From: Pseudomonas lijiangensis
GTDB taxonomy: Bacteria; Pseudomonadota; Gammaproteobacteria; Pseudomonadales; Pseudomonadaceae
Assembly: GCF_018968705.1 (NCBI RefSeq)
Contig: NZ_CP076668.1
Coordinates: forward strand, 4,723,001-4,787,000
Reading direction: 5' to 3'
Length of the DNA: 64,000 nucleotides
A program made the translations under genes and the position numbers. The first letter of the stretch is position 1, and every line of letters starts with the position of its first letter. Shown piece after piece: positions 20,796 to 58,640 of this stretch. Below the pieces are notes generated by a model. The model saw nothing but the letters and a program-made list of their open reading frames with translations. It was not told where the DNA came from and made no database searches.

Positions 20796-20936
20796 TGTCG
20801 ATCTCCTGATTATGGTTTTAGAGCGCTCGGTGAACACACCGGCGTGGTTTAAAAAATCCGGTCTTGCCGGTCACGGTTCGACGAGCGAACCGCAGAATAC
20901 GGTCTGGCAAAGGCCAGAAACCTTGCGGTGACCCAT
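20796..20936 (-). ncRNA. Structured groES 5' leader (candidate Pseudomon-groES RNA motif)
   Basis: The leader folds into four tandem hairpins, given here in plus coordinates: 20903-20918 (TCTGGC/GCCAGA), 20874-20892 (CGGTTC/GAACCG), 20858-20870 (CCGG/CCGG) and 20828-20841 (CGGTG/CACCG). The third is followed on the transcript by ATTTTTT, so it resembles a small intrinsic terminator within the leader. A conserved RNA upstream of groES in this genus is known as the Pseudomon-groES motif. I assign it by position and structure, not by a covariance search. Confidence 0.55.
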
Positions 20937-20964
20937 ACATAAGGGCGAGCAAGGTGATTACAAG
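20937..20964 (-). promoter_or_regulatory. Sigma32-type promoter of groESL
   Basis: On the minus strand CTTGTAA (plus 20958-20964) is separated by 13 bases from CCTTATGT (plus 20937-20944). This fits the heat-shock consensus CTTGAAA and CCCCATNT with one and two mismatches, and it places the transcript start about 135 bases before groES. Confidence 0.65.
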
Positions 20965-43592: not shown

Positions 43593-44267
43593 TCAGCGCC
43601 TGCCCAAAACCGTTTCAAATTGCGACGAGCCCGCCTTGAGCACCCCGCTCTGAACCAGCAGCGGTGCCACCATTGCCGTCGGTTCGACCTGACCGCTCAC
43701 TTTCATCCGACGGGTGACAGGCTCCAGGCCGATCTCGAAACGATGCTCACCCTCGCGCCGGACCTCGGCCAACAGTTTCAATCCATCGAGGCACTCAAGC
43801 CTGAGATGAGCGTTGCCCAGTATCACCATCCACGGCGACAGCACGGCCAGGTCATTGCCCTGAAGACTCCCTTCACCAGACGTACATTTCGCGCCACGGC
43901 CCTGCATCAGCAAACGTCCTTGCCAGCGACCATCCACGACGTAGGCCGTGGCCGGGGTAACAAGAGTGCCCGCGGGCGCAAGCTCGGCAGTCCACGCCCA
44001 AGGCCAGCCTTGCAGTTTGAGTTCCCAGACTTGCTGCTGAAACCCGGCGCTCACCAAGCCTTGCCCTATCCAGGGCCGAAGGCTCCAGCTCACAGGCCCG
44101 ATGCTCCCCAGTCGCTCGGCTCGTCCGTGCCACAGGGTCCCGGCAACGCCCTGCGGCTGCCAGCCAGACGTCCAGGGGACGAAGCGAGCCAGAAAGGCGG
44201 CGGGCATATTCAGCAAAAGCGTCAGGACAAACACCAGCGCGCCGAGCATCCATAGCTTGCGGCTCAT
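43593..44267 (-). CDS. gspN: Type II secretion protein GspN
   Basis: 224 residues. One N-terminal membrane segment (about 5-25) is followed by a periplasmic domain with PWTSGWQPQGVAGTLWHGRAE and SWSLRPW, the family signature. GspN is an accessory part of type II machines, of uncertain role. It is the last gene of the operon and overlaps gspM by 4 bases. Confidence 0.85.
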   Translation of the reverse strand: MSRKLWMLGALVFVLTLLLNMPAAFLARFVPWTSGWQPQGVAGTLWHGRAERLGSIGPVSWSLRPWIGQGLVSAGFQQQVWELKLQGWPWAWTAELAPAGTLVTPATAYVVDGRWQGRLLMQGRGAKCTSGEGSLQGNDLAVLSPWMVILGNAHLRLECLDGLKLLAEVRREGEHRFEIGLEPVTRRMKVSGQVEPTAMVAPLLVQSGVLKAGSSQFETVLGRR

Positions 44268-44701
44268 GGAAGCCTCCCCGCACGCCCGACATCCAGGCTG
44301 AACACCAGACTCTGATGACCTTGTTCGAGGCTCCAGCGCAGCGGTCGTCCGCCTTGTTCCTGGATGCTGCGCATGAGTTGCGCCAGAGGTTCAGCGCGGC
44401 TCAACTCACCTTGCAACTGCCAGATATCGCCTCGCTGCTCGACCCGCGTCAGTACCAGCCCTCGGGCACCGGCCAGCGCCTGCCAGTAGTCGGCGGTAAA
44501 CGCCGGGCCGGGGCTCAGCGCCTGGGCCTGCTGCGCCAGAAGCGGCCACTGACGCAGGTCCTTGCCCCAGGCCAGCAAGGGACGACCGATCAGCACCAGC
44601 AATAACGTCAGCACAACGACCCAACCCGCCAACAGCGCATAACGCCGGGCAGGCGGCAAGGCGGCGAAAGCGTTTGAAGCCCGCAGAATCAATGCATTCA
44701 T
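44264..44701 (-). CDS. gspM: Type II secretion protein GspM
   Basis: 145 residues with one membrane helix (about 25-45) and a small ferredoxin-like periplasmic domain. GspM binds GspL in the inner-membrane platform. It overlaps gspL by 4 bases and gspN by 4 bases. Identification rests on position, size and topology as well as sequence. Confidence 0.8.
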   Translation of the reverse strand: MNALILRASNAFAALPPARRYALLAGWVVVLTLLLVLIGRPLLAWGKDLRQWPLLAQQAQALSPGPAFTADYWQALAGARGLVLTRVEQRGDIWQLQGELSRAEPLAQLMRSIQEQGGRPLRWSLEQGHQSLVFSLDVGRAGRLP

Positions 44702-45813
44702 GGCTGCCCATCCAGATTGAAATTGAGGGTTAGCAGGGAGGTCTTTTCATTCGTTTCAACGCTGACCTTCGCCCCCGCCGCCTTGGCCATGACCTGCCAA
44801 TGAGTCGTGTCGGGAGGTGAAGCATTGCCACTCAACACCAGTCGCAGGGTTCGCCCATCGAAATAAGTCCCGGACACGCCCCAGTCTTTCTGGCTGTCGA
44901 GCCACAGCGTCATGGCCTGTTCCAGCTCGACAACCTGCTGCTGACGGCTTCGCCAGTCAGTCTGTTCGGACTGCAGACGAGACAACACTCGCGCTGCCTG
45001 CCGGGCATTGTCGACCGGACCGGTCAAGGCTTCGACCTGAGCTTTCCATACAGGCACCTGCTGCCAGAATTGCCCCAGCATCAGCGCGCCCCAACAGAGC
45101 GCCAGCACACCACAGACACCCGCCAGACGAGACAGACTTTTGCCAAATGGCGATGCCCGACGCCGAGTTTTTGGACGACGAGCACCTGAGCGTACCAACA
45201 GATTGGGCAAACGACTCAACGTAGCCCAACGGGAAGGCCATGGCCCGGTCATTTCCTCGCTCGGCTGTCGCCAGTTCTCGGGCGGCTCACCCAGCACATC
45301 CGGCCACACCAGCCAGTGCTGCAAATCGTTGTCAGCGCCGCGGATCAGGCAACGGCCTTCAGGACGCGACCAGCTCAGTGCCTGACCAGCGGCCTGCGTC
45401 GGCAGCAATTGCAACTCGGCCCACAGATAATCGGGGGATACGCCCAGCTCTTCGCACTCGCTCAACCAGCGCTGAACCTGTGCGCGCTCGACTACCAGCA
45501 ATTCCAGATGCCCGGCGAGCCGCGACAGGCAACTGACCTGCACCGCTTCGGCAGGCTGTTGCAGCAGGTCCTCCAGCAACATCGGCCATTCATGAGGCTT
45601 GAGCCCCGGTGGCGCGGGCACCTGAAAATGGCTGCACTGCGCGGCGGGCATGATCAGTGCGACGGTGTCCTGCAGACAGTGCGCAGGCGGCGGCCAGTCG
45701 CCCTGCTCGTCTCCCGGCAGGCGGCGCCATTGCCATGCACCCGTGGCGGCAGGACGCAGCAGCAACCAATGACGCTGCACACGGCGTTTGAGACTCCAGC
45801 GTTCAACGATCAT
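44698..45813 (-). CDS. gspL: Type II secretion protein GspL
   Basis: 371 residues. The cytoplasmic part (about 1-215) has an actin-like fold and docks the GspE ATPase. A single membrane helix is near 225-250 (LAGVCGVLALCWGALMLGQFW), followed by a periplasmic ferredoxin-like domain. It overlaps gspJ and gspM by 4 bases each, which points to translational coupling. Confidence 0.83.
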   Translation of the reverse strand: MIVERWSLKRRVQRHWLLLRPAATGAWQWRRLPGDEQGDWPPPAHCLQDTVALIMPAAQCSHFQVPAPPGLKPHEWPMLLEDLLQQPAEAVQVSCLSRLAGHLELLVVERAQVQRWLSECEELGVSPDYLWAELQLLPTQAAGQALSWSRPEGRCLIRGADNDLQHWLVWPDVLGEPPENWRQPSEEMTGPWPSRWATLSRLPNLLVRSGARRPKTRRRASPFGKSLSRLAGVCGVLALCWGALMLGQFWQQVPVWKAQVEALTGPVDNARQAARVLSRLQSEQTDWRSRQQQVVELEQAMTLWLDSQKDWGVSGTYFDGRTLRLVLSGNASPPDTTHWQVMAKAAGAKVSVETNEKTSLLTLNFNLDGQP

Positions 45814-46400
45814 GGGCGGCTATCGGGCAAGCTGAAGGTACAGACATAAGGCGCTCCATGACGCTCGAATTCGAGTCGCACGCCCCGGTCGGGCTGAAGT
45901 GCGACGTTGGAAGGGAACGCCAGCCAGCGGGTCCCCTGATAAAAACTGAAACCGACCTTGTCGACCTCATCCAGCTGTTCGCGACGCTCCCAGCGAGGTG
46001 CGCCGACGGCATACAGGTCAGGCGAAGTCCACAGGCTCAAACGCCGTTCCCGTGGATTGAATTCCAGCCGCTGCCGCTGTGTTCTCGACTGACCTTCGAC
46101 CTCGGGCCAGGCGGTCAGGGCGACCCAGCCCAACTGATTCGCGGCCGGGTCCCAGTCGAGCCAGTTCATCGACAACGGCAGACGTTGTTCATACAAACGC
46201 CGCAACACCAACCCATCGAAACGCCGCTCCAGGGCCAGACAGAACTCCAGCACCAGCGGCTCGTTACCCGGTTCAGCCAAACGCTCGCGAACCTTGATCC
46301 AGCCATTCACCAGAGCGGCCAGCACCACACCGACGACAGCCGTCAGCGCCATGGCCACCAGCAACTCGATGAGGGTCAGCCCACGCTGGTTAACGCTCAC
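45810..46400 (-). CDS. gspJ: Minor pseudopilin GspJ
   Basis: 196 residues from GTG 46400. The type III signal (VNQRGLTLIELLVAMAL) has the Gly at the cleavage site, Glu at +5 and a hydrophobic helix. It caps the pseudopilus with GspI and GspK. Overlaps of 4 bases join it to gspI and gspL. Confidence 0.85.
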   Translation of the reverse strand: MSVNQRGLTLIELLVAMALTAVVGVVLAALVNGWIKVRERLAEPGNEPLVLEFCLALERRFDGLVLRRLYEQRLPLSMNWLDWDPAANQLGWVALTAWPEVEGQSRTQRQRLEFNPRERRLSLWTSPDLYAVGAPRWERREQLDEVDKVGFSFYQGTRWLAFPSNVALQPDRGVRLEFERHGAPYVCTFSLPDSRP

Positions 46401-46762
46401 GGGCGCACCAGAAAAACGGTGTAGTTTCCCAGTGGCTCGCGCTCGTCGCGGGCGGCGAACAGCGCCAACTCACCCCGGCGCAGGTTCTGAACACCGGTCA
46501 TGCCCAAGTCCATCCGCCAGTAGCAAACCCTGTCGCCCTGCTGCAATTCGCCGCTGACCTTGCTGATCTGCGGCCAGTAGCGCTCGACGCCGAAACGCGC
46601 CTCCAGCTCACGGGCACACAGGGCGCCCAGTCGATGCTGCTGAACGGCCTGATGCACGGTAATGCGCTGGCGCAGCATCTGGCTGACCATCATGGTCATG
46701 ACCGCCGCGATACCCAGCGCCACCATGACTTCCAGCAGCGTGAAACCGCACTGGCGCTTCAT
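46397..46762 (-). CDS. gspI: Minor pseudopilin GspI
   Basis: 121 residues. Prepilin signal MKRQCGFTLLEVMVALGIAAV with cleavage after Gly and Glu at +5. The size and the LNWQ-like position (here RMDLGM) suit GspI. It overlaps gspH and gspJ by 4 bases. Confidence 0.83.
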   Translation of the reverse strand: MKRQCGFTLLEVMVALGIAAVMTMMVSQMLRQRITVHQAVQQHRLGALCARELEARFGVERYWPQISKVSGELQQGDRVCYWRMDLGMTGVQNLRRGELALFAARDEREPLGNYTVFLVRP

Positions 46763-47208
46763 GGCAGCCTGACCTGCGTCAGGCTGTTATCCGTGCGCCA
46801 CTCCCAGCGCTGTCGCCCCTCTGGCCATTGCCAGTTCAGGTTCACTGCGGCGGCCACACCCAATGGTGTGAACACAACACGAGGCTCGTCAGACACCGGC
46901 CAGTCCACCAGTAACCCTTGGGGCCAGGGCTTCAGGCGCCTTGAATCGACGACCCAGCGGGTCTGACCCTGGTTGCGCTCCAGACGGACAAACTCCGGCT
47001 GCCGGCCATTCCAGCGCATTCCCGATACCTGCCCGCTGTGCCGGGCCTGGGCCGCTTGAGTACGGGCTTCGGCAGCCAGTTTTTCCAGAGCCTGCTGCAT
47101 CGGTGCATGACCTGAATCCAGCCAGGCCACGCTCAGGGCACTGAACAGCCCGATGATCAGCAACACCACCAGAATTTCCAGCAGTGAAAAGCCCCGTGAA
47201 ACCTTCAC
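46759..47208 (-). CDS. gspH: Minor pseudopilin GspH
   Basis: 149 residues from GTG 47208, 2 bases after the gspG stop. Prepilin signal SRGFSLLEILVVLLIIGLFS with Glu at +5. The C-terminal part is a small beta domain. It belongs to the tip of the pseudopilus. Confidence 0.83.
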   Translation of the reverse strand: MKVSRGFSLLEILVVLLIIGLFSALSVAWLDSGHAPMQQALEKLAAEARTQAAQARHSGQVSGMRWNGRQPEFVRLERNQGQTRWVVDSRRLKPWPQGLLVDWPVSDEPRVVFTPLGVAAAVNLNWQWPEGRQRWEWRTDNSLTQVRLP

Positions 47209-47210
47209 GT

Positions 47211-47648
47211 CTAGAGGTTCCAGTTCCCGATATCGCCATCGGTGCCTTCCCCGCCCTGGGCTCCATCAGCCCCCAGCGAGTAGATATCGATGCGTCCATG
47301 CTCGCCCGGCGCACGGTAGTGATACGGGTTGCCCCACGGGTCCGCCGGCAGGCGACGGATGTAGCCGTCGGCCCGCCATGAGCGAGCCAGTGGCTCCACC
47401 GAGGGCGCGCTGGTCAGGGCCGCAAGACCTTGCTCGGTGCTGGGGTAGCGCAGGTTGTCGAGGCGATACATGTCCAGCGCCTGCTCAAGGGTGGACAGGT
47501 CGGCCAGGACTTTCTGGCGCATGGCCTTGTCCTGGTTACCCAGAACGCTGGGGGCAACCACGGCGATCAACAGGCCGATGATGAAAATCACCACCATGAT
47601 TTCCATCAGCGTGAAGCCACGCTGGCGACGTGAGGCAGGCTTGGACAT
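47211..47648 (-). CDS. gspG: Major pseudopilin GspG
   Basis: 145 residues. The prepilin signal RQRGFTLMEIMVVIFIIGLL is followed by the GspG signature (DKAMRQKVLADLSTLEQALDMYRLD, YPSTEQGLAAL, DPWGNPYHY, DIYSLGADG), including the calcium-binding loop. GGAG 9 bases upstream supports ATG 47648 over the ATG at 47663. It is cleaved by a prepilin peptidase not encoded here (presumably PilD). Confidence 0.93.
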   Translation of the reverse strand: MSKPASRRQRGFTLMEIMVVIFIIGLLIAVVAPSVLGNQDKAMRQKVLADLSTLEQALDMYRLDNLRYPSTEQGLAALTSAPSVEPLARSWRADGYIRRLPADPWGNPYHYRAPGEHGRIDIYSLGADGAQGGEGTDGDIGNWNL

Positions 47649-47666
47649 ACGACGGTTCTCCATGAG

Positions 47667-48869
47667 TCAGAAAGTGAGTCCTTGGTTGAGCTGCATGATC
47701 GGCAACAGCACGGCCAGGACGATGAACAGCACCACGGCGCCCATCACCAGAATCATCAGGGGCTCGAACAAGGCCATGAGCATGTCCACATGACGGGTGA
47801 AACTGCGTTCCTGGTTGTCAGCCACCCGTTCGAGCATGTCCGGCAAGGTCCCGCTGGCCTCGCCGCTGGCGACCATGTTGAGCAGCAGCGGCGGAAAATG
47901 ACCGGCAGCGTTGAGGGCACGATGCAGGCTGACGCCGCCCTCGACCTGTTCACGAACGGTTTCCAGCGCCCGATGCACTTCACGGTTGCTCACGGTGGCA
48001 GTCGCCACGTGCAGGGCTTCGAGCAACGGCACGCCGCTGCCCACCAGAATCGCCAGACTGCGGGCCAGCCGGGCGCTTTCCAGCACGGTCAGCAACGGAC
48101 CGACCTTGGGCAGGCGCAGCAGGCTGCGGTCCAGGCGCAATCGCCAATGGGCCTTGCGCAGCAGGAAACCCGCACCAACGGAGGCCAACAGCCCCAGTGC
48201 CAGCAACCACGGGCCGACATGCACCAGCCCTTCGCTGATGCCGATCAGCAATTGGGTAATCAGCGGCAGGCTCTGCCCGGTATGGCTGAATTGCTCGGTG
48301 AGTTTGGGGACCACGAAAGTCATCAGGCCAATGACCACGGCCAGAGAAACCAGCATCAGCACCGCCGGATAGATCATCGCGGTACGGGCCTTGTGTCGCT
48401 GGCGCTGGACTTGTTCAAGGTGCTCGGCCAGACGCTCCAGCACCGGCGCCAGCTTGCCGGAACGCTCGCCCGCCTCTACCAGTGCGCAATACAGCCCATT
48501 GAACAGACCGCCCTGGCGTCGCAGGCTCTGGGCCAGACTGTGCCCTTCCCCGAGCGCGCCGCGCACGGCCACCAACAGGTTGCGAATCGCAGGTTCGGCC
48601 AGTTGTCGTTCGAGTGTCGCCAGGGCATCCACCAGCGCAATCCCGGCACTGAGCAGCGTCGCCAACTGGCGCGTCAGTTCGCACAACTGGGTGTGATTGA
48701 GGCGCTGGCCCCGTGGACTGCGAGAGGTCGGGTCCTGAATCTGCAAGTCCCGGGCGAACAGGCCTTGCTCACGCAAGAGCTGTCGGGCGTGCCGCTCGCT
48801 TTCTGCCTGAAGGCTGGCTTTGCGCGTGCGACCTGCCGGGTCGAGCGCCTGATAGCGATAAGTCGGCAT
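47667..48869 (-). CDS. gspF: Type II secretion inner-membrane protein GspF
   Basis: 400 residues with three membrane helices (about 170-190, 220-240, 370-395) and two repeated cytoplasmic helical bundles (LATLLSAGIALVDALATLE and LAILVSGSGVPLLEAL-like), typical of GspF/PilC. It links the ATPase to pseudopilus assembly. Three bases separate it from gspE. Confidence 0.92.
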   Translation of the reverse strand: MPTYRYQALDPAGRTRKASLQAESERHARQLLREQGLFARDLQIQDPTSRSPRGQRLNHTQLCELTRQLATLLSAGIALVDALATLERQLAEPAIRNLLVAVRGALGEGHSLAQSLRRQGGLFNGLYCALVEAGERSGKLAPVLERLAEHLEQVQRQRHKARTAMIYPAVLMLVSLAVVIGLMTFVVPKLTEQFSHTGQSLPLITQLLIGISEGLVHVGPWLLALGLLASVGAGFLLRKAHWRLRLDRSLLRLPKVGPLLTVLESARLARSLAILVGSGVPLLEALHVATATVSNREVHRALETVREQVEGGVSLHRALNAAGHFPPLLLNMVASGEASGTLPDMLERVADNQERSFTRHVDMLMALFEPLMILVMGAVVLFIVLAVLLPIMQLNQGLTF

Positions 48870-48872
48870 CGG

Positions 48873-50333
48873 TCAGCCCCGCACCGCGCGCAGTACCTGC
48901 GCCAGGCTGGTTTCGCCGCGTCGCAGGCATTCGGTGGCCATGGCCGCCAGACTTTGTCGCTTGTCAGCCAGGTAGTCCTGCATCGCGACCTCGCTGGCGC
49001 CGTCGTACAGCAAGGCAATCAGGCCAGCATCCAGTTCGATGAATTCGTACAACCCCATGCGGCCGTCATAGCCACTGCCCTGGCAGGAGTCGCAGCCTTG
49101 AGGGTGAAAGCTTTCGGTGAGCCCGGCCAGTTCCGGCCACAGCATCCGCTCGGCGTCTTGCAAGGGTTGCGCAACGGCGCAATGACACAAGCGGCGCACC
49201 AGTCGCTGGGCCAGCACGCCCTTGAGGGTCGAGGCGATGAGGAAGGGTTCGATGCCCATGTCCCGCAAGCGAGTCACCGCGCCCACCGCGCTGTTGGTGT
49301 GCAGGGTGGAAAGCACCAGATGCCCGGTAAGGCTGGCCTGCACGGCGATCTGGGCTGTCTCGCGGTCACGGATTTCACCCAGCATGATCACGTCCGGGTC
49401 CTGACGCAGAATGGCCCGCAGACCATTGGCAAACGTCATTCCGGCCTTGGGGTTGATCGCGGTCTGACCGATACCGGTAATCGCGTACTCGACCGGGTCT
49501 TCCACCGTAAGAATGTTACAGGAGCCATCGTTGAGGCTGTTCAGGCTGGCGTAGAGCGTGGTGGTCTTGCCCGAGCCGGTCGGGCCGGTGCTGAGCACGA
49601 TGCCGTTGGGACGTTGCAGACAGGCTCGCAGCCCCTGCTCCACTTCAAACGGCATGCCGAGGTTGCCCAGATCCAGCAGGCTCGCCTGTTTATCCAGCAC
49701 CCGCATCACCACGCGCTCGCCATGAATGCCCGGCAAGGTCGAGACGCGAATGTCCACTTCACGCCCGGCAGAGCGCAGGGTAATCCGGCCATCCTGAGGC
49801 TGACGCTTTTCGGCGATATCCAGCCGGGCCATGACCTTGATCCGCGACACCAGCATCGTCGACAACGCACGAGGCGGACGCAGCACTTCACGCATGTGCC
49901 CATCGATGCGCAGACGAATCACCAGACTCGCCTCGAAGGTTTCCACATGAATGTCCGAAGCCCGCAAACGCAACGCTTCGCCGAACAGGCCGTTGATCAG
50001 ACGAATGACCGGCGCGTCGTTATCGTTCTCCAGCAGGTCTTCGATCTTCGGCAGTTCGCTCATCAGGCTGTCGAGGTCGACCTGCTCGCCAATCCCGTCG
50101 ATCAGCGCAGCGGTGGCCGACTCGCCGGCCTGATACAGCTCCCCGAGCCGGGTTTCATAATCCTGGGTCGAAAGGTGTTCCACTGTGCGCGGCGCACCAT
50201 GCACCCGCATCACTTCCTGCAAGGTGTCGGTGTCGCTTCCGGCCCTCAGCCATAGCTGCCAGCCCGCATCACCCGGCACCCTGGCGACGCCGGTCTGGCG
50301 TGCCACGCGATACGGCAGCAGTGCGCTTACCAT
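48873..50333 (-). CDS. gspE: Type II secretion ATPase GspE
   Basis: 486 residues. N2E and C-terminal ATPase domains: Walker A GPTGSGKTT, Asp box (ILTVEDPVEY), Walker B (LGEIRDRETA), His box (GHLVLSTLHTNSA), and a zinc module (CHC and CDSC). The zinc module is a mark of GspE. It powers pseudopilus growth. It overlaps the gspD stop by 7 bases. Confidence 0.94.
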   Translation of the reverse strand: MVSALLPYRVARQTGVARVPGDAGWQLWLRAGSDTDTLQEVMRVHGAPRTVEHLSTQDYETRLGELYQAGESATAALIDGIGEQVDLDSLMSELPKIEDLLENDNDAPVIRLINGLFGEALRLRASDIHVETFEASLVIRLRIDGHMREVLRPPRALSTMLVSRIKVMARLDIAEKRQPQDGRITLRSAGREVDIRVSTLPGIHGERVVMRVLDKQASLLDLGNLGMPFEVEQGLRACLQRPNGIVLSTGPTGSGKTTTLYASLNSLNDGSCNILTVEDPVEYAITGIGQTAINPKAGMTFANGLRAILRQDPDVIMLGEIRDRETAQIAVQASLTGHLVLSTLHTNSAVGAVTRLRDMGIEPFLIASTLKGVLAQRLVRRLCHCAVAQPLQDAERMLWPELAGLTESFHPQGCDSCQGSGYDGRMGLYEFIELDAGLIALLYDGASEVAMQDYLADKRQSLAAMATECLRRGETSLAQVLRAVRG

Positions 50334-52273
50334 GCGCCCTGATCCAGACGTTCGCGACTGGCCGGAAACAATTGCAGCAGCGGGTCACCCTCGGTTGCAC
50401 CCGGCAGTGCCAACGAGGTGCTGGCCTTGAGGTTGCGGTATTTCTCGCTGCTGAGCTGAGCCAGCGTCTCGCCGTCGCGCACGATGCGCGGGCGGATGAA
50501 GACCATCAGGTTCTGTTTGACCCTTTGGGTCGAGTCGGAGCGAAACAGTCGCCCCAGCACCGGAATATCACCCAGCAATGGCACACGCTGATCGCTGGTG
50601 GTGGACTCATCACCGATCAGCCCGCCCAGCACCACCAGACCGTTATCTTCGACCATGACCTTGGTCTTGATCTCGCGCTTGTTGGTGATGACATCGCTGG
50701 CCGTGGTGCTGTCGGCAATCGAGGAAACCTCTTGCACGATGTCCAGGCGCACGGTGTTGTCGATGTTGATCTGCGGCTTGATGCGCAGCTTCACACCCAC
50801 TTCCTTGCGTTCGATGGTCTGGTAGGGATTGGTGTTGTCCTGGGTCACCGAGCCGGTCACGAAGGGCACTTCCTGCCCCACCAGAATCGACGCTTCGGCG
50901 TTATCCAGCGTGAGCAAGGTCGGCGTCGACAAAAGGTTGAAACCGCTCTGGCTTTTCAGGGCATTGAGCAAGGCCAGAAAATTCAGCCCGCCACCGCTCA
51001 GGTTGCCGACCCCGGCGGTCACACCCTGAACCCCGGCCAGCAATTGCCCCAGGCCTGCCGTGTCCCCGGCCTGTGCCAGCGCGCCAACGCTGGTGACGCT
51101 CGGCGCATTATTGCCGCTGAAATTGATCGCGCCGCCACCGAAATTGTTGCCCTGAAACAGCCATTGCACGCCCAGCTCCTGAGCGCGGGTGTCCGACACT
51201 TCGGCAATGATGGCTTCGACCACCACCTGGGCACGACGGATATCCAGTTGCTCGACAATGCTGCGATAGGCCGTCAATTCGCTGTCCGGCCCGACCATCA
51301 CCACGGCATTGGTGCCTTCCTCGTATTCCATGCGAATGCCCGACGTGCTGACCGGCACGGACTTCTCGCTGCCCTGAGCGGAGGATGTCGGCGCAGCGAT
51401 GTCCTGACTGAGGCCGCGCAGGACCTTGACCACTTCGGCCGCATTGGCATGGCGCAGGTAGATCACCACGGTGTTGGAGTTGTGCTGCGGGTCGTAAGGC
51501 TTATCCAGTTGCTTGAGCAAGGCCCGCACACGGGCACGGCTGTCGGTGCTGCCGCGCACCAGCAAGGCATTGCTGCGCGGATCGGCCACCACTTGCGCAC
51601 TGTCGGCGCCCTGCTCGCGAGCCAGCAGGCGCGTGACCAGTTGCGCGGTGTCGTTGGCGTTGGCATTTTTCAGGGGCAGCACTTCCAGGGGTTCCTGACT
51701 GACCTGATCGAGCTGAACCAGAAGGCTGTCGATACGATCCAGGTTGCTGCGCCAGTCGGTAATCACCAAGAGGTTGGCCGAAGGGTACGGCGTGATCACC
51801 CCCACTCGCGGGTCGATCAGCGGCTTGAGGATATTGAGCATCTGTTCGCTGGCAGCGTTGCGCACGTTGAACACGCGGGTCGCCATGCCATCGTTGGCCT
51901 GCGACGCATTGCGGCCCGCCTCCACCGGCACGGGCTCAAGGCGAGCGGCCTGATCCGGGACAATCTTCACGCTGCCGTTTGGCAGGTCCACCGCCGCGAA
52001 ACCCTGGGCGCGCAGTTGAGCCAGGAAAATATCGTAGATCTCTTCACTGCCCAGCATCTCGCTGCTGCGCACCGTGACCTTGCCTTTGACTCGCGGGTCG
52101 ATGATGAACGTGGTGTGGGTGATGCGCGAGACGCTGTCGATGAACTCGCTGAGTTCGGTATCGACAAAGTTGACCTCATACAGCGGCTCTTCTTCGGCAC
52201 TCACACCGGTCAGGGTCAGAGCACACAGCAGAAGGGCAAGACGCAGCGGTTGCTTGAGACGAATGAAGGTCAT
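50327..52273 (-). CDS. gspD: Type II secretion secretin GspD
   Basis: 648 residues with a signal peptide (about 1-26), N0 (YEVNFVDTELSEFIDSVS), N1-N3 repeats and the secretin core (VPFVTGSVTQDNTNPYQTIE, LIGDESTTSDQRVPLLGDIP). It forms the outer-membrane channel. No separate pilotin gene is seen nearby. It follows gspC by 3 bases. Confidence 0.94.
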   Translation of the reverse strand: MTFIRLKQPLRLALLLCALTLTGVSAEEEPLYEVNFVDTELSEFIDSVSRITHTTFIIDPRVKGKVTVRSSEMLGSEEIYDIFLAQLRAQGFAAVDLPNGSVKIVPDQAARLEPVPVEAGRNASQANDGMATRVFNVRNAASEQMLNILKPLIDPRVGVITPYPSANLLVITDWRSNLDRIDSLLVQLDQVSQEPLEVLPLKNANANDTAQLVTRLLAREQGADSAQVVADPRSNALLVRGSTDSRARVRALLKQLDKPYDPQHNSNTVVIYLRHANAAEVVKVLRGLSQDIAAPTSSAQGSEKSVPVSTSGIRMEYEEGTNAVVMVGPDSELTAYRSIVEQLDIRRAQVVVEAIIAEVSDTRAQELGVQWLFQGNNFGGGAINFSGNNAPSVTSVGALAQAGDTAGLGQLLAGVQGVTAGVGNLSGGGLNFLALLNALKSQSGFNLLSTPTLLTLDNAEASILVGQEVPFVTGSVTQDNTNPYQTIERKEVGVKLRIKPQINIDNTVRLDIVQEVSSIADSTTASDVITNKREIKTKVMVEDNGLVVLGGLIGDESTTSDQRVPLLGDIPVLGRLFRSDSTQRVKQNLMVFIRPRIVRDGETLAQLSSEKYRNLKASTSLALPGATEGDPLLQLFPASRERLDQGAW

Positions 52274-52276
52274 TGC

Positions 52277-52705
52277 TTATCCCTGTTGCTTGAAGCCGAA
52301 GAAGGGCCGTTGCGCAGGCCATGGCAAACGTTCGAGCTTGCCGTTGTTGTCGAACACCATGCCCAGCTCATCGATGTCATGCAGAGAAACGCCGGGGGCC
52401 AGTTTCTGGCCGCGAGCCAGAGTGCGTTGGCGCTGCTCGAAACGCAGCACCACCACCGTGGCGCTCAGGGGAATGGCCTTGAGGCTACCCAGGTATTCGA
52501 TACCCAGCGTGGTCAGGGGCAATTCATTGCTGAGGACGGGACCGGCCCGCCAGTGGCTGCTCAACAGACCGGCCACTGGCGCCGGGGCCGCGCTACCGGT
52601 GACGGGTCGCGCCAGCCCATGCCAGGCCTGCAACACACACTGCGCCGCCAGCCAGCCGATCAGTATCACCAGCAGCACATGGCTCGCCCAGGCAAGACGG
52701 ATCAT
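52277..52705 (-). CDS. gspC: Type II secretion protein GspC, short form
   Basis: 142 residues: one membrane helix (about 5-25) and an HR domain (LLSSHWRAGPVLSNELPLTTLGI through LGMVFDNNGKLERL). The usual C-terminal PDZ or coiled-coil domain is absent, so it is about half the normal length. It would connect the inner platform to GspD N0. The start overlaps the stop of the SoxB-like gene (ATGA). Confidence 0.78.
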   Translation of the reverse strand: MIRLAWASHVLLVILIGWLAAQCVLQAWHGLARPVTGSAAPAPVAGLLSSHWRAGPVLSNELPLTTLGIEYLGSLKAIPLSATVVVLRFEQRQRTLARGQKLAPGVSLHDIDELGMVFDNNGKLERLPWPAQRPFFGFKQQG

Positions 52706-54354
52706 GCAGCCGACTCTCGTGGATGCCAGCCGGGATGACCTTGTACGTAACGCATTCCGGGCAATTGCAAAGGTGCGATGCGCCAGTCGGCAGGACGCTC
52801 GCGCAGCCAGGCTTCAAGGTGCTGCCAGAGCGGCTGACCGGCCTGAGCATCGAAACCCAGGCCAAAGGTGCGACACTGCCCGGCGGGTTCACCCACGCCA
52901 TTGATCCGCTTGCCACCCGCGCTGTAAGTGACCTCCCATGACTGGCCCATCCAGCGCGGCAAGTCCTGGCTGTTGTCCAGCAGCAACATATCGCCAAACA
53001 TTTGCTCGGCGACGTTTTCCAGCACTCTGGGGACCTGCTTCGCGGGCACATTCACCACCGGAGCCGGATAGCTGCCGGTCAGACTGATAAGGTGTTCGCG
53101 GGTAATCATCTGCCCTTGCGCCAGCGGACTGTCGTAACGCAGGCCCGGCAGCAGCACGGAACTGTCGGGACGCTCGGCCAATGCCTCATGCAGCAACCGG
53201 TCCCAACTGCCGCCGCGCACATCCCGACGCCAGAGGTTTTCCGGCGCACGGGCCAGCGGCTCGTCCAGCCAGCCTGCATGGGCGGCGCGCTGCTGTTGGG
53301 TGAGCTGCCGAATGCGCTGGGCCTGGACCTGATCAGCCGCCGTCAGGGTGCTTTCCAGCGCCGGGTGAAAGCGCGCCGTGAACTGCCACTGCCCCTCGAC
53401 CTGCTGGCAACGAATACGAAAGGCTCCGCTGGCACGGGTCCCGCCCAATATCACAGGCACACGCTTGCCAGAGGCCTGCATGATTTCCACGGGCTGCGGC
53501 CAGAGATCCTGCCCACGGGCGCACAGCACCATGTCGATCTGCGGCAGACGTTCGGCCAGCCAGATCCCGGGACCGGTGCCGACATCGGCCAGGGCAATGA
53601 CCAGATCGGCATCGGCCCGGGCACGCTCAAGTGCCGGTTGCAGGCTGTCGTGCCATTGTTTGAGTGACAGTTTCTGATCCCGGGCGTAGGGGTCGGTAAT
53701 GCCGACGACCGCCATGCGAATTCCGCCGCGACGAAAGAACGTCACGGCTTCAGTGCCCAGGCGCTGGCTGGCATCCGCTGCCAGGTCTGCGCCCAGAACC
53801 GGATGCCCGAACTGACGATACAGACCGGCACAGTGTTGCGGCCAGAGCAGACGCTCATCGCTGCTGACCCGCACTTCAGTGCCCAGCAATGCACTGCCTT
53901 GAACACCGGACTTGCCCTGAGTCAGATAAGCCAGGCCACTGCCATTCCAGCATTGGCCGTTCTCCAGCGTGAGGCTGTTGCCCTCACCCGCTTCACTGCG
54001 AAAACGCTGTAGCAACGCGCCCAGCACCGGATAACCACCGGTTTCGACATGCTGACTCAGGCTGGCGTCGAGCAGGCTGTTGAGTGAGGTTTGATCGGGT
54101 GCGTGAACGCGGGCATTGCTCCCCGTGATCCAGGGTGCCTGGCCGATACGGGTCGCCGGCCCCAGGTGCGTGGCGGGAACCACCGGCTTGCCAGGCTGGC
54201 GAGCATCCAGGGTGTCGGCCACATACAGCAGATCGACATAGCTGCCGCTGGCCACAGAACCTCTGTACTGAAGGCTTGAGCAGGCCGATAGCAACGGCGC
54301 CATGGCACCTGCCGTCATCCATCCCAACACATCGCGCCGCGCCATTGAAGCCAT
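52702..54354 (-). CDS. SoxB/5'-nucleotidase-like exported lipoprotein with degenerate metal site
   Basis: About 550 residues from ATG 54354. Tat-type signal MARRDVLGWM followed by a lipobox LLSAC. The body resembles the SoxB / 5'-nucleotidase metallophosphoesterase fold: HLGPATRIGQAPWITG near the N-terminus and QDLPRWMGQSWEV near the C-terminus recall SoxB. The first metal-ligand motif (D-x-H in relatives) reads VADTLDA, so the catalytic site appears lost or changed. It is the first gene of the type II secretion operon, coupled to gspC. It may be cargo, a surface-binding partner or a phosphatase with altered metal binding. I place the start at 54354 because the predicted transcript starts near 54387, leaving no leader for the GTG at 54384. 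Confidence 0.68.
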   Translation of the reverse strand: MASMARRDVLGWMTAGAMAPLLSACSSLQYRGSVASGSYVDLLYVADTLDARQPGKPVVPATHLGPATRIGQAPWITGSNARVHAPDQTSLNSLLDASLSQHVETGGYPVLGALLQRFRSEAGEGNSLTLENGQCWNGSGLAYLTQGKSGVQGSALLGTEVRVSSDERLLWPQHCAGLYRQFGHPVLGADLAADASQRLGTEAVTFFRRGGIRMAVVGITDPYARDQKLSLKQWHDSLQPALERARADADLVIALADVGTGPGIWLAERLPQIDMVLCARGQDLWPQPVEIMQASGKRVPVILGGTRASGAFRIRCQQVEGQWQFTARFHPALESTLTAADQVQAQRIRQLTQQQRAAHAGWLDEPLARAPENLWRRDVRGGSWDRLLHEALAERPDSSVLLPGLRYDSPLAQGQMITREHLISLTGSYPAPVVNVPAKQVPRVLENVAEQMFGDMLLLDNSQDLPRWMGQSWEVTYSAGGKRINGVGEPAGQCRTFGLGFDAQAGQPLWQHLEAWLRERPADWRIAPLQLPGMRYVQGHPGWHPRESAA

Positions 54355-54393
54355 CGTTCTTGTGTCCTGAGGCGAATCCTTCACAGGGGCGGC

Positions 54394-54427
54394 ATATTGG
54401 CGATGGAAAATGACAGTTTGATGGCAG
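54394..54427 (-). promoter_or_regulatory. Pho box and -10 of the type II secretion operon
   Basis: On the minus strand CTGCCAT-CAAA-CTGTCAT (plus 54410-54427) matches the PhoB consensus (two CTGTCAT repeats with 4 bases between) with one mismatch. Ten bases downstream is CAATAT (plus 54394-54399), a fair -10 at the spacing usual for PhoB-activated promoters. It points to induction by phosphate starvation. Confidence 0.72.
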
Positions 54428-54586
54428 ATTTTTAACCTGGACCTTCACGACCCTCTCTGTAACAAAATGAAATAACTACGACGATTTTCAGACACTTTCT
54501 TAATAAAACTGCCAATGAATCATCACACTCGGCTTCTACAGTCCCGGTTCCTTTTCCAAACCTATTTCATAAAAAGGACCTGATGA

Positions 54587-56617
54587 ATGAGTCGTAATAC
54601 CGGCGATAACCAGAACCGCAACCTGAGTACCAACGAACCGCTGTCATCCGTGCTGGACACTTATCTGAGCCGTCGCAGCGTGGTACGTGGCGGGCTGGGT
54701 GCTGCCATTGCCATGATTGCGGGCGTCGGGCTTACCGGCTGCTTCGACAGTGGCAGCGATTCGAATGACGACCCGGCACCGACACCCGATACGCCAGCGA
54801 GCCTGAAACTGGGCTTCACCTCGATCCCTGGCTCGCGCACCGACGCCGTTACCGTGGCCGCCGGTTATACCGCTCATGTTCTCGCCCCATGGGGCACGCC
54901 GCTCAGCAATCTGGCCAACCCCTGGAAAAGCGACGGCAGCAACACCTCTACCGATCAGGCCAACTCCATGGGCATGCACCATGACGGCATGCACTATTTC
55001 CCCATCAACGGCAGTTCCACTGATGGTCTGCTGGCGATCAACTTTGAATACATCGACCAGACCGCCCTTCACCCGTCAGGTCCGACCCTGGTTGGCGGCG
55101 TTCGCCCGGTCGAAGAAGTGCGCAAGGAAATCAACGCCCATGGCGCTGGCGTCGTGCGTATCAGCAAGGTCGGCAACCGCTGGCAGGTGGTGGAAAACGA
55201 TCCACTGAACCGCCGCTTCACCACGGCCTCGGTCATGAACCTGTCCGGCCCGCTCAAAGGCACTGATCACGTCAAGACCGTGTTCTCTACCGACGGCAGC
55301 CAGACTCGCGGCACCAACAACAACTGCGGCAACGGTTACACGCCATGGGGCACTTACCTGACCTGTGAAGAGAACTGGCCGGGGATTTTCGTCAACAAAG
55401 GCACTCGTCCTGCAGACCAAGTGCGTATCGGCATCGCCACCTCGAACGGCAACTATCGTTGGGAAACCGCTGCGGGCGATGCTTCCGAGGTCAACGGCGA
55501 GTTCACCCGTTTCAACATCACCCCGTCAGGCGCCACCGCCACGGACGACTACCGCAACGAAGCCAGCACTTATGGCTATATCGTTGAAATCGACCCGTAC
55601 AACGCCAGCACCCTGCCGGTAAAACGCACCGCCCTTGGCCGCTTCCGTCACGAAGGCTGCTGGCCGGGCCTGACCACTCCCGGCAAACCGGTGGTGTTCT
55701 ACATGGGCGACGACTCGCAGAATGAATACCTCTACAAGTTCGTCTCCACCGCCCTGTGGGATGCAGCCGACGCCAACCCGAGCGATCGCCTGGCCACCGG
55801 CGCCAAGTACATGGACAGCGGCAAACTCTATGTCGCCCGCTTCAACGCCGACGGCAGCGGCAACTGGCTGTTGCTCGACGTGGCCACAGCGACAACCGAC
55901 AGCAGCACCCTGGGTGCCAAGTTCACCGACCTGCCAGGCATCATCCTCAACACCCGCGGTGCTGCGGATGCGGTCGGCGCAACGCCGATGGACCGCCCGG
56001 AATGGACAGCCGTCAACCCGCTCAATGGCGACGTCTATCTGACCCTGACCAACAACACCAGCCGCACCACGGCGAACGCCGCCAACCCGCGGGTCAACAA
56101 CAAGCACGGGCACATCATCCGCTGGCATGATGCCGACGATCTGGTGTCGTTCACCTGGGACATCTTCGTCTTTGGCGCCAACGCTTCCGGCACGGCAGAC
56201 ATCAACCGCTCCGGCCTGACCGAACTGAACCAGTTCGCCAGCCCGGACGGCATGAGCTTCGATAGCCGTGGCGTGCTGTGGGTCCAGACCGACAACGGCG
56301 AATCCACCATCACCAGCTACACCAACGACCAGATGCTGGCGGTCATTCCGACCAACATGGTCGATGCGCAAGGCAAACAGATTCCGGTCAATGCCCAGAA
56401 CCAGGGCGACCTGCGTCGTTTCTTCGTCGGCCCCAATGGCAGCGAAGTCACCGGCCTGGCCTTTACGCCGGACAACAAGACCATGTTCGTCAACATCCAG
56501 CACCCCGATAACTGGCCATCGACCGATGTGGCGACCGACGTGACCGTCGGAACCGTAAGGCCACGCGCGTCAACCGTGGTCATCCAGCGTGCTGATGGAG
56601 GTGATCTGGCGGTGTAG
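54587..56617 (+). CDS. phoX: PhoX-family alkaline phosphatase
   Basis: 676 residues. Tat signal SRRSVVRGGLG (about 29-39) followed by a hydrophobic stretch and LTGC, a possible lipobox. The body is the PhoX (DUF839) beta-propeller with NNCGNGYTPWGTYLTCEENW, RHEGCWPG and SPDGMSFDSRGVLWVQTD, regions that hold Ca/Fe ligands. PhoX releases phosphate from organic esters under phosphate starvation. ATG 54587 is used because the ATG at 54583 stops after four codons. It diverges from the Pho-boxed secretion operon and may itself be PhoB-controlled, though only a half-site is seen on this strand. Confidence 0.9.
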   Translation: MSRNTGDNQNRNLSTNEPLSSVLDTYLSRRSVVRGGLGAAIAMIAGVGLTGCFDSGSDSNDDPAPTPDTPASLKLGFTSIPGSRTDAVTVAAGYTAHVLAPWGTPLSNLANPWKSDGSNTSTDQANSMGMHHDGMHYFPINGSSTDGLLAINFEYIDQTALHPSGPTLVGGVRPVEEVRKEINAHGAGVVRISKVGNRWQVVENDPLNRRFTTASVMNLSGPLKGTDHVKTVFSTDGSQTRGTNNNCGNGYTPWGTYLTCEENWPGIFVNKGTRPADQVRIGIATSNGNYRWETAAGDASEVNGEFTRFNITPSGATATDDYRNEASTYGYIVEIDPYNASTLPVKRTALGRFRHEGCWPGLTTPGKPVVFYMGDDSQNEYLYKFVSTALWDAADANPSDRLATGAKYMDSGKLYVARFNADGSGNWLLLDVATATTDSSTLGAKFTDLPGIILNTRGAADAVGATPMDRPEWTAVNPLNGDVYLTLTNNTSRTTANAANPRVNNKHGHIIRWHDADDLVSFTWDIFVFGANASGTADINRSGLTELNQFASPDGMSFDSRGVLWVQTDNGESTITSYTNDQMLAVIPTNMVDAQGKQIPVNAQNQGDLRRFFVGPNGSEVTGLAFTPDNKTMFVNIQHPDNWPSTDVATDVTVGTVRPRASTVVIQRADGGDLAV

Positions 56618-56720: not shown

Positions 56721-57686
56721 TCACATCTGCCCCACCTTGCGCTCCCTTACCACCATCTCCTGCGCCGGTACCCGGCTGTGCCATTTCACGATGCCCAGGG
56801 CTTCGGCGCGGTATTGGCTGTGGAATGTCTGGCCATCCAGCTCCACTTCGATCTGCAACAGGAAGTGATCACCATTGAGCTGCAAGCCCTCGCTCAGTCG
56901 GGCGAAGGCTTCATCGTCCATGGCGCCCATGGCCTGACGCAAGGCGCTGGCATCCAGATAACCTCCAGCCGGTCTGCCGCTGATCAGGCGGGTCAGTTGC
57001 GAGCGCTCCACTTTCCCCTCGTACAAAGCTTCCAGCAAAGGCAATTCACTGAGGTTGAGGGCATTGGCATTCAGCCGCCAACCGGTGGTTTCCGGCAAGG
57101 CGCACAGCTGTGGATAACGTTGCTCGCGCTGGCTGTCGGCGGGTAGCAGCAGGTTCAATTCGCTGATATCGACCATCGACTGATTGGCCGCCAGACGCGG
57201 TGGTGAAGCACGCAGGTATTCGTTGTTCTCGGCACCTTGCAGACTGCTCTGGTGATCGGAGTCGACCCAGTCGGTCAGGCTCTGAGCCAGACGCTCAGCC
57301 TGCATGTCCGCACCCAACAGGTAAACCAGCTGCTTTTGCGCACGCTCGGCTTCATCTCCGATCAGGCTGTTGACGTTGAAGCAACGGTGCAAATCGACAA
57401 TCCGGATACTCGCCTTGCCACCCTTGAAGTCATAGCTCAAAGGCTGCCCGCGCAAGGCCTGCCAGAACAGCGGGCTGGCGCGCCACACCGGGTCCTTGAG
57501 CGCCTGTCCGGTAAAGGCCAGGGCCGCCTTTTCAATGGACCGCGCCTGCACACGCTGCTGAAGCAGCCGCACACTGTCCACCTCCTGCCGTCCCTGCTCG
57601 ACCATCCAGGCCAGCCCTGCGGCCAACATGGCCAGTGCCACCAGCACCATCAGCAGCGCCGCACCTTGTTGTCGGTTTCTCGTCAT
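56721..57686 (-). CDS. gspK: Minor pseudopilin GspK
   Basis: 321 residues from ATG 57686 with AAGG 8 bases upstream. Prepilin signal RNRQQGAALLMVLVALAML has Gly at the cleavage site and lacks Glu at +5, as is usual for GspK. A large domain follows (IRIVDLHRCFNVNSLI, LTDWVDSDHQ, EYLRASPPRLAANQSM), typical of the family. It is the only gsp gene outside the main operon, beyond phoX. It would form the tip of the pseudopilus with GspI and GspJ. Confidence 0.88.
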   Translation of the reverse strand: MTRNRQQGAALLMVLVALAMLAAGLAWMVEQGRQEVDSVRLLQQRVQARSIEKAALAFTGQALKDPVWRASPLFWQALRGQPLSYDFKGGKASIRIVDLHRCFNVNSLIGDEAERAQKQLVYLLGADMQAERLAQSLTDWVDSDHQSSLQGAENNEYLRASPPRLAANQSMVDISELNLLLPADSQREQRYPQLCALPETTGWRLNANALNLSELPLLEALYEGKVERSQLTRLISGRPAGGYLDASALRQAMGAMDDEAFARLSEGLQLNGDHFLLQIEVELDGQTFHSQYRAEALGIVKWHSRVPAQEMVVRERKVGQM

Positions 57687-58094
57687 CGTCCAGCCTTGGG
57701 GTTTCAACGCAAGACGCCAGTCAACACCGAGAATGTTTCAGGCAGGTGGCAGATGACTGAAAAGATCCTGATTGCGGTTTCCTACAAGCGTATGTGAATG
57801 CTTACCGAGAGCATGCTGAATTCCCCAATTACTGACCAGCCGAGCAACCGCTAACCTTGCCAGCGTCGTTGCAAATCAACGAACGGGTTTGGCGACCCGA
57901 TCAAGTAAACACTCCCCATCACGCCGCAGTCGCTTTATTCTGTCTGCCACCGCGTTATGGCGGCTGTGTGCGGGAGGCCTTCGGGTCTGCCGGTTTTCTA
58001 CTTGCCGGTTCGCCAACCCTCACATAGCTGCCACCCCATTGTTTGGCGACAATCCATGGCGGCTTCAATCCGTGATCAAAGTAGAGTGCCACCC
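57687..58094. other. Long intergenic and leader region between gspK and the BRO-N gene
   Basis: The 408-base gap has no convincing gene. Its first half should hold the gspK promoter (minus strand), and I find no Pho box there. The second half contains a structured element, listed separately, that leads into the BRO-N gene. Confidence 0.5.
57959..58053 (+). ncRNA. Structured leader element before the BRO-N gene
   Basis: GGCGGCTGTGTGCGGG at 57959 pairs with CCCTCACATAGCTGCC ending at 58032, with changes mostly kept as G-U pairs. Inside is a hairpin with a TTCG loop (about 57973-57993) and a GCCGGTT direct repeat. A second hairpin (ATTGT/ACAAT, 58038-58053) follows. It may be a cis-acting RNA or a DNA inverted-repeat element. 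I recall similar sequence in other pseudomonads but cannot name a family. Confidence 0.45.
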
Positions 58095-58640
58095 ATGCGG
58101 AATATCGTCCCAACATCCCCCTGCACAGACCATTTCGAAGCCACCCTTTTCGTACGCCACCACCGTATGCTGCGTGCCATCCATAGCGAAGCCCAGGCAT
58201 GGTTCTGTCTTGCAGACCTTGCACGCTTGATGGGCCAGACGCTGGGTGAACGCTCAGCACTCAAGCTCGATGCCGATCAAAGACGGGTTGTCTGGTTGCA
58301 GGCTAACGGCAAGTGGCAAAAACAATTGATGGTCAGCGAGTCAGGTGCGTTTGCGTTGTTGGTTCATCACTACGTTCCCGAAAACCGGGCACTGCGACAG
58401 TGGCTTACCCATGAAGTACTGACGGTACTGCACGCACCGCAAAATATGACACTGGATAACCCGAGGCTCAGCCATTTGCAGTGGCCAGACACGTCATTGA
58501 GCGTGATGCAATGGCGCGATGAGTCATGGATTCGCTTGCGGGATATGCCGAATGTAGCGCCGCAGACTACACGACCAGTCGAGCATGGTTTCTGGCGGAG
58601 AATGAAAGCACGTATCGACAGCAAACGGCTGGCAGACTAG
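58095..58640 (+). CDS. BRO-N domain (phage antirepressor-like) protein
   Basis: 181 residues. The N-terminal BRO domain is visible as FVRHHRMLRAIHSEAQAWFCLADLARLMG, then VSESGAFALLVHHYVPENRALRQWLTHEVL, the usual BRO-N ending. No C-terminal KilA or ANT domain is present. Such proteins come from phage antirepressors and bind DNA, but here no other phage gene is near. I choose ATG 58095 because BRO similarity starts close to it. The reading frame runs upstream to 57957 through the structured leader. Confidence 0.75.
   Translation: MRNIVPTSPCTDHFEATLFVRHHRMLRAIHSEAQAWFCLADLARLMGQTLGERSALKLDADQRRVVWLQANGKWQKQLMVSESGAFALLVHHYVPENRALRQWLTHEVLTVLHAPQNMTLDNPRLSHLQWPDTSLSVMQWRDESWIRLRDMPNVAPQTTRPVEHGFWRRMKARIDSKRLAD

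Follow-up and report, generated by a model that had tools for sequence, protein, structure and literature searches.

A conserved Pho box before a type II secretion operon of Pseudomonas lijiangensis and the probable non-catalytic role of its leading lipoprotein, UxpA

A 64,000-nucleotide stretch of the genome of the plant-associated Pseudomonas lijiangensis, hereafter the window, carries on its minus strand a set of type II secretion system (T2SS) genes headed by uxpA, with the alkaline phosphatase gene phoX as divergent neighbor; the replicon is a 5.87 Mb Pseudomonas chromosome. A conserved Pho box and a -10 element precede uxpA, and the sequence and the comparisons given below indicate that the operon is very likely regulated by PhoB. 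The overall explanation favored here, with good if not complete confidence, is a PhoB-driven uxpA-gsp operon for which PhoX would be the cargo and UxpA a non-catalytic partner. A Pho-controlled T2SS operon is not new in kind; the finding holds for the window and extends knowledge from Pseudomonas putida to the Pseudomonas cichorii group, with the Pho box as the DNA element that explains the regulation known from P. putida. The surprise lies with uxpA: under the annotation of phosphatase or cyclic phosphodiesterase, it heads a conserved phosphate-scavenging secretion operon, yet its product lacks the metal site that the chemistry of the predicted fold needs. The features central to this account are as follows.

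54410..54427, minus strand: Pho box CTGCCAT-CAAA-CTGTCAT before uxpA, seen in the sequence and conserved (first among the 420 permuted motifs)
54394..54399, minus strand: -10 element CAATAT, seen in the sequence (CAATAT, CACTAT or CAGTAT in most of 29 aligned loci)
52702..54354, minus strand: uxpA, a 550-residue twin-arginine translocation (Tat) lipoprotein with a predicted SoxB fold and most metal ligands gone (the mechanical open reading frame starts at GTG 54384; ATG at 54354)

At PhoB promoters the -10 element lies about 10 bases downstream of the box and a -35 element is not needed. The first-pass annotation had described the motif, its spacing and CAATAT on the minus strand, and all three were recovered: exactly 10 bases (54409-54400) separate box and hexamer, and when the box is set against a pair of CTGTCAT repeats with a period of 11 bases, the form given for PHO boxes (direct CTGTCAT-like repeats at that distance) in passages of PMC4415409, it agrees at 13 of 14 fixed positions. 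The 5.87 Mb genome contains no site with zero mismatches and five with one mismatch, the uxpA box among them; because such sites are so few, the chance expectation of a one-mismatch site in a given gap of ~200 bases is, by our own arithmetic, roughly 2e-4. Sites with at most two mismatches number 37, compared to 12 for the reversed motif that served as the genome-wide control.

Conservation was examined in 57 named loci with UxpA relatives, gathered by scanning with patterns from the window protein, which favors close relatives. The box score is the number of matches among the 14 fixed positions of CTGTCAT-N4-CTGTCAT, and the controls were all 420 distinct permutations of CTGTCAT, each doubled with an identical gap. 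Rows more than 90% alike were removed for both the aligned and the alignment-free counts, which left 29, 30 and 26 rows, out of at most 34, in the aligned test. Of the 34 Pseudomonas-type loci, 31 have a uxpA-ward box that scores at least 11, and the remaining three score 10. The true motif ranks 1 of 420 before uxpA in both the aligned test (29 Pseudomonas-type loci) and the alignment-free test (30 loci), with a mean of 12.1 in each, and it also ranks first in 16 Halomonadaceae-type loci (alignment-free), where its mean of 10.56 is barely above those of related motifs. Conservation of the repeats in orthologous loci, proposed earlier as a check, was thus found in both large groups. Several results nevertheless count against the overall explanation. 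In the P. oryzihabitans-type group the uxpA box scores 9 of 14 in three loci (L070-L072) and 12 in L077, and in alignment-free tests the motif ranks 26 of 420 in 4 loci of this group and 13 of 420 in 2 Marinobacterium loci; on the phoX side, a weaker candidate box (described below) fails the alignment-free test, ranking 142 of 420 in 30 Pseudomonas-type loci.

Elsewhere in the genome, 30 of the 37 sites with at most two mismatches were looked at and six downstream proteins were scanned. Pho-type genes stand behind three: a UDP-glucose 6-dehydrogenase (L113), an EAL-CBS-GGDEF protein that we take to resemble RapA (L115), and an LpxH-type metallophosphoesterase (L136), which would be PlcP. The proteins behind three others, a glycosyltransferase (L118), an FMN reductase (L125) and a cupin (L114), are not clearly Pho-linked, and site L116 has no clear gene behind the motif. 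The genome's second T2SS (L108, G000:C1:2118000-2137999; 767-residue secretin, XpsF-like GspF) served as a specificity control: in its 20 kb one site, within coding sequence, had 11 matches, and no Pho box close to the consensus lay in noncoding sequence. In P. putida BIRD-1, the phosphate-responsive table in PMC5082522 holds a UDP-glucose 6-dehydrogenase and the metallophosphoesterase PlcP, and the passages available report that GspK (PPUBIRD1_1091), PhoX (1093), UxpA (1094) and GspG (1099) increased at low phosphate (next column ND) and that PhoX, UxpA and 'TatADG' were absent from a phoBR mutant. Since Table 2 of that paper uses tatA and tatG as the gene names of General secretion pathway proteins K and G, 'TatADG' is read here as Gsp proteins. 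The accompanying text speaks of the Tat pathway, and from these passages T2SS genes appear to have been mislabelled, which hides evidence for Pho control of a T2SS (PMC5082522). The conserved box, the three Pho-type sites elsewhere and the PhoBR dependence in BIRD-1, as far as these passages go, together argue for a PhoB-dependent operon, and the earlier proposal that a Pho box drives it is well supported; PhoB would bind the uxpA box directly.

The remaining genes of the operon, together with phoX and gspK, are laid out as follows.

52277..52705, minus strand: gspC (PF11356 below cut-off; assigned by position; 4-base overlap with uxpA)
50327..52273, minus strand: gspD, secretin (TIGR02517, 605 bits, cut-off 351)
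48873..50333, minus strand: gspE, ATPase (TIGR02533, 607 bits, slightly under the cut-off of 630; PF00437, 454 bits)
47667..48869, minus strand: gspF (TIGR02120 above cut-off)
47211..47663, minus strand: gspG, major pseudopilin (TIGR01710 above cut-off)
46759..47208, minus strand: gspH (TIGR01708, 75 bits, slightly under the cut-off of 80)
46397..46762, minus strand: gspI (PF02501 above cut-off)
45810..46400, minus strand: gspJ (PF11612 below cut-off; prepilin motif; position)
44698..45813, minus strand: gspL (PF05134 above cut-off; TIGR01709 below cut-off)
44264..44701, minus strand: gspM (TIGR04412 above cut-off)
43593..44267, minus strand: gspN, the final operon gene (PF01203 slightly under cut-off)
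54587..56617, plus strand: phoX, UxpB-type alkaline phosphatase (PF05787, 466 bits; relatives 3zwu/4amf; Tat signal, lipobox)
56721..57707, minus strand: gspK, minor pseudopilin (NF037980, 179 bits, cut-off 130; mechanical open reading frame starts at TTG, with ATG 21 bases on)

From uxpA to gspN the genes overlap or lie ~3 bases apart and are therefore read as a single 12-gene operon, uxpA-gspCDEFGHIJLMN. The order given in the first-pass annotation, from a SoxB-like lipoprotein through gspN with phoX as the divergent neighbor, stands, with the exception of gspK, which lies outside the operon, beyond phoX and convergent with it. Among the 57 loci, gspK is likewise apart in 35, lies downstream of uxpA among other gsp genes in 17 (Halomonadaceae-type and Azomonas), and was not seen within the fetched stretch in 5. 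Divergence of phoX from uxpA within the fetched stretch is seen in 56 of the 57; in L090 the two are ~2.8 kb apart, and in L068 (Azomonas) a second PhoX encoded in that genome falls just outside the fetched stretch.

In the mechanism proposed, phosphate shortage would bring phosphorylated PhoB to the repeats (54427-54410), recruiting RNA polymerase to the -10 element (54399-54394) and yielding one transcript for all 12 genes, while gspK and phoX (uxpB) would be expressed from promoters of their own, probably also under PhoB, via weaker elements. PhoX would be exported in folded form by Tat and then handed on by the Xcp-like T2SS, reaching the cell surface or the medium and freeing phosphate from organic esters there. 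UxpA, exported by Tat and lipidated, would keep its SoxB/5'-nucleotidase fold without the metal site and, anchored and non-catalytic, would partner PhoX or the secretion system as an adaptor, a receptor or an assembly factor. Of the suggestion that the system has its own cargo, the part that concerns PhoX (UxpB) is retained, as PhoX is the likely enzyme cargo in this strain; it probably does not carry over to UxpA, in which six of seven metal ligands are gone and the lipobox is constant.

The case for a non-catalytic UxpA begins with the protein itself. A SoxB fold is predicted, with the structural match given by a second-look aligner, and the label 'SoxB-like' is apt for the fold but not for family membership, as UxpA scores 136 bits against the SoxB family model, which has a cut-off of 550. 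With the seven metal ligand positions (D, H, D, H, H, H, H) assigned, on our assumption, from family motifs, one is kept in UxpA and in all 56 full-length relatives, a count that omits L093 (357 residues) and the open-ended L094, both of which were kept in the conservation count. The replacements are fixed across the 56 relatives, one of the six positions differing again in one row. UxpA therein differs from SoxB thiosulfohydrolase and the 5'-nucleotidases; all seven ligands are present in 14 of 14 SoxB controls, three of the positions being fixed by choice because the control frames were selected to hold GGD and GHTHD. UxpA has a Tat signal and a lipobox, and its lipobox is invariant among the relatives while that of PhoX is not; lipidation would be expected from this sequence. 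All 31 sampled genomes with this type of GspD carry uxpA, the type being defined by a threshold of 72% that was set after a gap down to 45% had been seen, and five of the 31 GspD matches spanning only residues 248 or 250 to 648. One of the 31, a genome of the genus sample, has uxpA split over two frames (G163:C1:2523396-2525028), a broken or misread copy. Stops inside uxpA matches in the named loci were, in the rows checked, due to the match extending upstream of the true start.

Because of the invariant lipobox, the constant company of the T2SS in the sample and the missing metal site, we prefer to see UxpA as a partner without catalytic activity, which on the sequence is more likely than a secreted phosphatase. 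A rather unlikely competitor is that UxpA is a working secreted hydrolase with a rebuilt metal site (e.g., C135, E167, D257, R280), so that both it and PhoX would be enzymatic cargo. Several observations speak for this and against a partner role. Putker 2013 is said to name UxpA with the Xcp-linked phosphatases. The former pocket holds conserved Asp, Glu, Cys and Arg that could form a different active site, and the former metal-site segments have a mean majority residue of 0.91-0.985 versus 0.67 for residues 26 to the end, as would be expected of a site with a job. To these may be added the name UxpA itself and its annotation as '2',3'-cyclic-nucleotide 2'-phosphodiesterase' in passages of PMC5082522. 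However, with six of seven ligands lost in every full-length relative, the fold should be unable to carry out its known chemistry; the lipobox is invariant, unlike that of PhoX; and the passages available of PMC5082522 name UxpA in whole-cell data of BIRD-1.

It is unlikely, and somewhat more so, that UxpA is a pilotin-like assembly lipoprotein of the T2SS that serves placement of the secretin rather than cargo. Its first position in the operon, the 4-base overlap with gspC, its presence in every sampled genome with this GspD type and a secretin without a lipobox of its own would all suit such a role. Known pilotins are small, however, against which a two-domain enzyme fold of 550 residues would be unusual, and phoX too travels with the cluster. 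A more specific form of the preferred partner role, which we advance tentatively and with less than even confidence, is that of a dedicated pseudo-phosphoesterase: with its metal site lost, the SoxB-fold protein would have turned into a lipid-anchored component of a single T2SS lineage, retained from Pseudomonas to Halomonas, and would receive or hold PhoX at the surface when phosphate is scarce. If true, part of the 'phosphatase' annotation of the operon would be wrong, and a T2SS could bring its own cargo receptor built from an enzyme fold. UxpA would be a testable case of possible cooperation between a T2SS and a lipid-anchored pseudoenzyme, and soil-phosphorus surveys should be wary of counting uxpA among the phosphatases.

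Among known systems, the order gspK, phoX, uxpA, gspC-G is also found in P. soli L057, P. mosselii L059 and P. guariconensis L066, which we take to belong to the putida group. Window uxpA shows 95% identity to its counterparts in P. cichorii MAFF 302096 and P. capsici and 99% to 'lipoprotein UxpA [Pseudomonas cichorii]' (NCBI name, 550 residues), which places it in the P. cichorii/capsici group; to the P. putida entries P0083 and P0089, identity of UxpA is 64%. In P. putida, PhoX-type UxpB is secreted by Xcp under phosphate limitation according to a passage of PMC4509608 that cites Putker 2013. The BIRD-1 locus tags (tags, not sequence, were compared) give the gene order of the window (gspK, phoX, uxpA, gspG), and the BIRD-1 proteins are induced at low phosphate via PhoBR (PMC5082522, in part). 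The passages available from these two papers mention no box, no separate gspK element and no loss of UxpA ligands. In Caulobacter, ElpS is a phosphate-starvation-induced surface lipoprotein encoded beside a T2SS that is required for release of ElpS and of an associated alkaline phosphatase activity; the passages of PMC2996285 report no known domain in it, and it is likened to UxpA by description, not by sequence.

It is very improbable that the repeats match by chance or serve another regulator and that the operon lies outside PhoB control: the 12 reversed-control sites and the motif sites before genes without a known Pho link (cupin, FMN reductase) or with none clear (L116) would allow it, but repeats and spacing are conserved in many species and the orthologous BIRD-1 proteins are PhoBR-dependent (PMC5082522, in part). 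In P. aeruginosa, Hxc is a T2SS that exports a phosphatase under phosphate limitation, and its neighboring genes differ from those of the window. The closest solved match of window GspD is 5wln, presumably XcpQ, and its N-terminus, judged by eye, has no lipobox. The Hxc comparison drawn earlier, which rested on a likeness in regulation and purpose, therefore stands for a phosphate-regulated T2SS but not for Hxc as the model, and a system of Hxc type is highly unlikely here, since HxcQ is a self-piloted liposecretin (passages of PMC2996285), the closest solved match of the window secretin is presumably XcpQ, and the cargo neighbors are UxpA and PhoX, as in the better-fitting Xcp/UxpA/UxpB locus of P. 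putida.

Candidate promoter elements were also found before phoX and gspK, both blocks being weaker than the uxpA box.

54509..54526, plus strand: weak candidate Pho box before phoX, CTGCCAA-TGAA-TCATCAC, in a conserved block
54537..54542, plus strand: candidate phoX -10 element TACAGT, 10 bases past the candidate box (mostly TACAGT, TAAAGT or TAGAGT in aligned loci)
57735..57752, minus strand: candidate Pho box before gspK, CTGCCAC-CTGC-CTGAAAC, in a conserved block (rank 14 of 420)
57724-57719, minus strand: TTGACT, 10 bases past the candidate gspK box, seen in the sequence

The block before phoX, which resembles CTGCCAA-N4-TCATCAC followed by ten bases and TACAGT, ranks 24 of 420 in the aligned test; without alignment, the four P. 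oryzihabitans-type loci give it rank 8, the 16 Halomonadaceae-type loci rank 16 and the two Marinobacterium loci rank 66. Before gspK, a block like CTGCCAY-N4-YTGMAAC with ten bases and TTGACT ranks 14 of 420 in 26 aligned loci. Upstream of separate gspK genes the top box scores of single loci are only 7 to 11 of 14, so the case for this box rests on position and spacing. A box of its own would explain the PhoBR dependence of GspK in BIRD-1.

Window PhoX passes its family model (cut-off 24), and its TPWGTYLTCEEN block lines up with solved PhoX. In five halomonads (L081, L082, L084, L090, L093) PhoX has no lipobox cysteine and its signal ends in an ordinary cleavage-type sequence; lipid anchoring of PhoX therefore seems optional. 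A second PhoX gene in the genome (G000:C1:5336546-5338171) scores above window PhoX on the PhoX family model.

Two RNA elements were noted elsewhere in the window. At 57953-58640 a C4 antisense RNA (Rfam RF01695, 78.6 bits) overlaps the start of a Bro-N antirepressor-like gene, and the two make up an isolated islet of phage type that separates gspK from lpxC; of the 57 stretches fetched, only L038 and L039 have the Bro-N gene. A Pseudomon-groES RNA element (Rfam RF01721, 94.5 bits) lies at 20825-20938.
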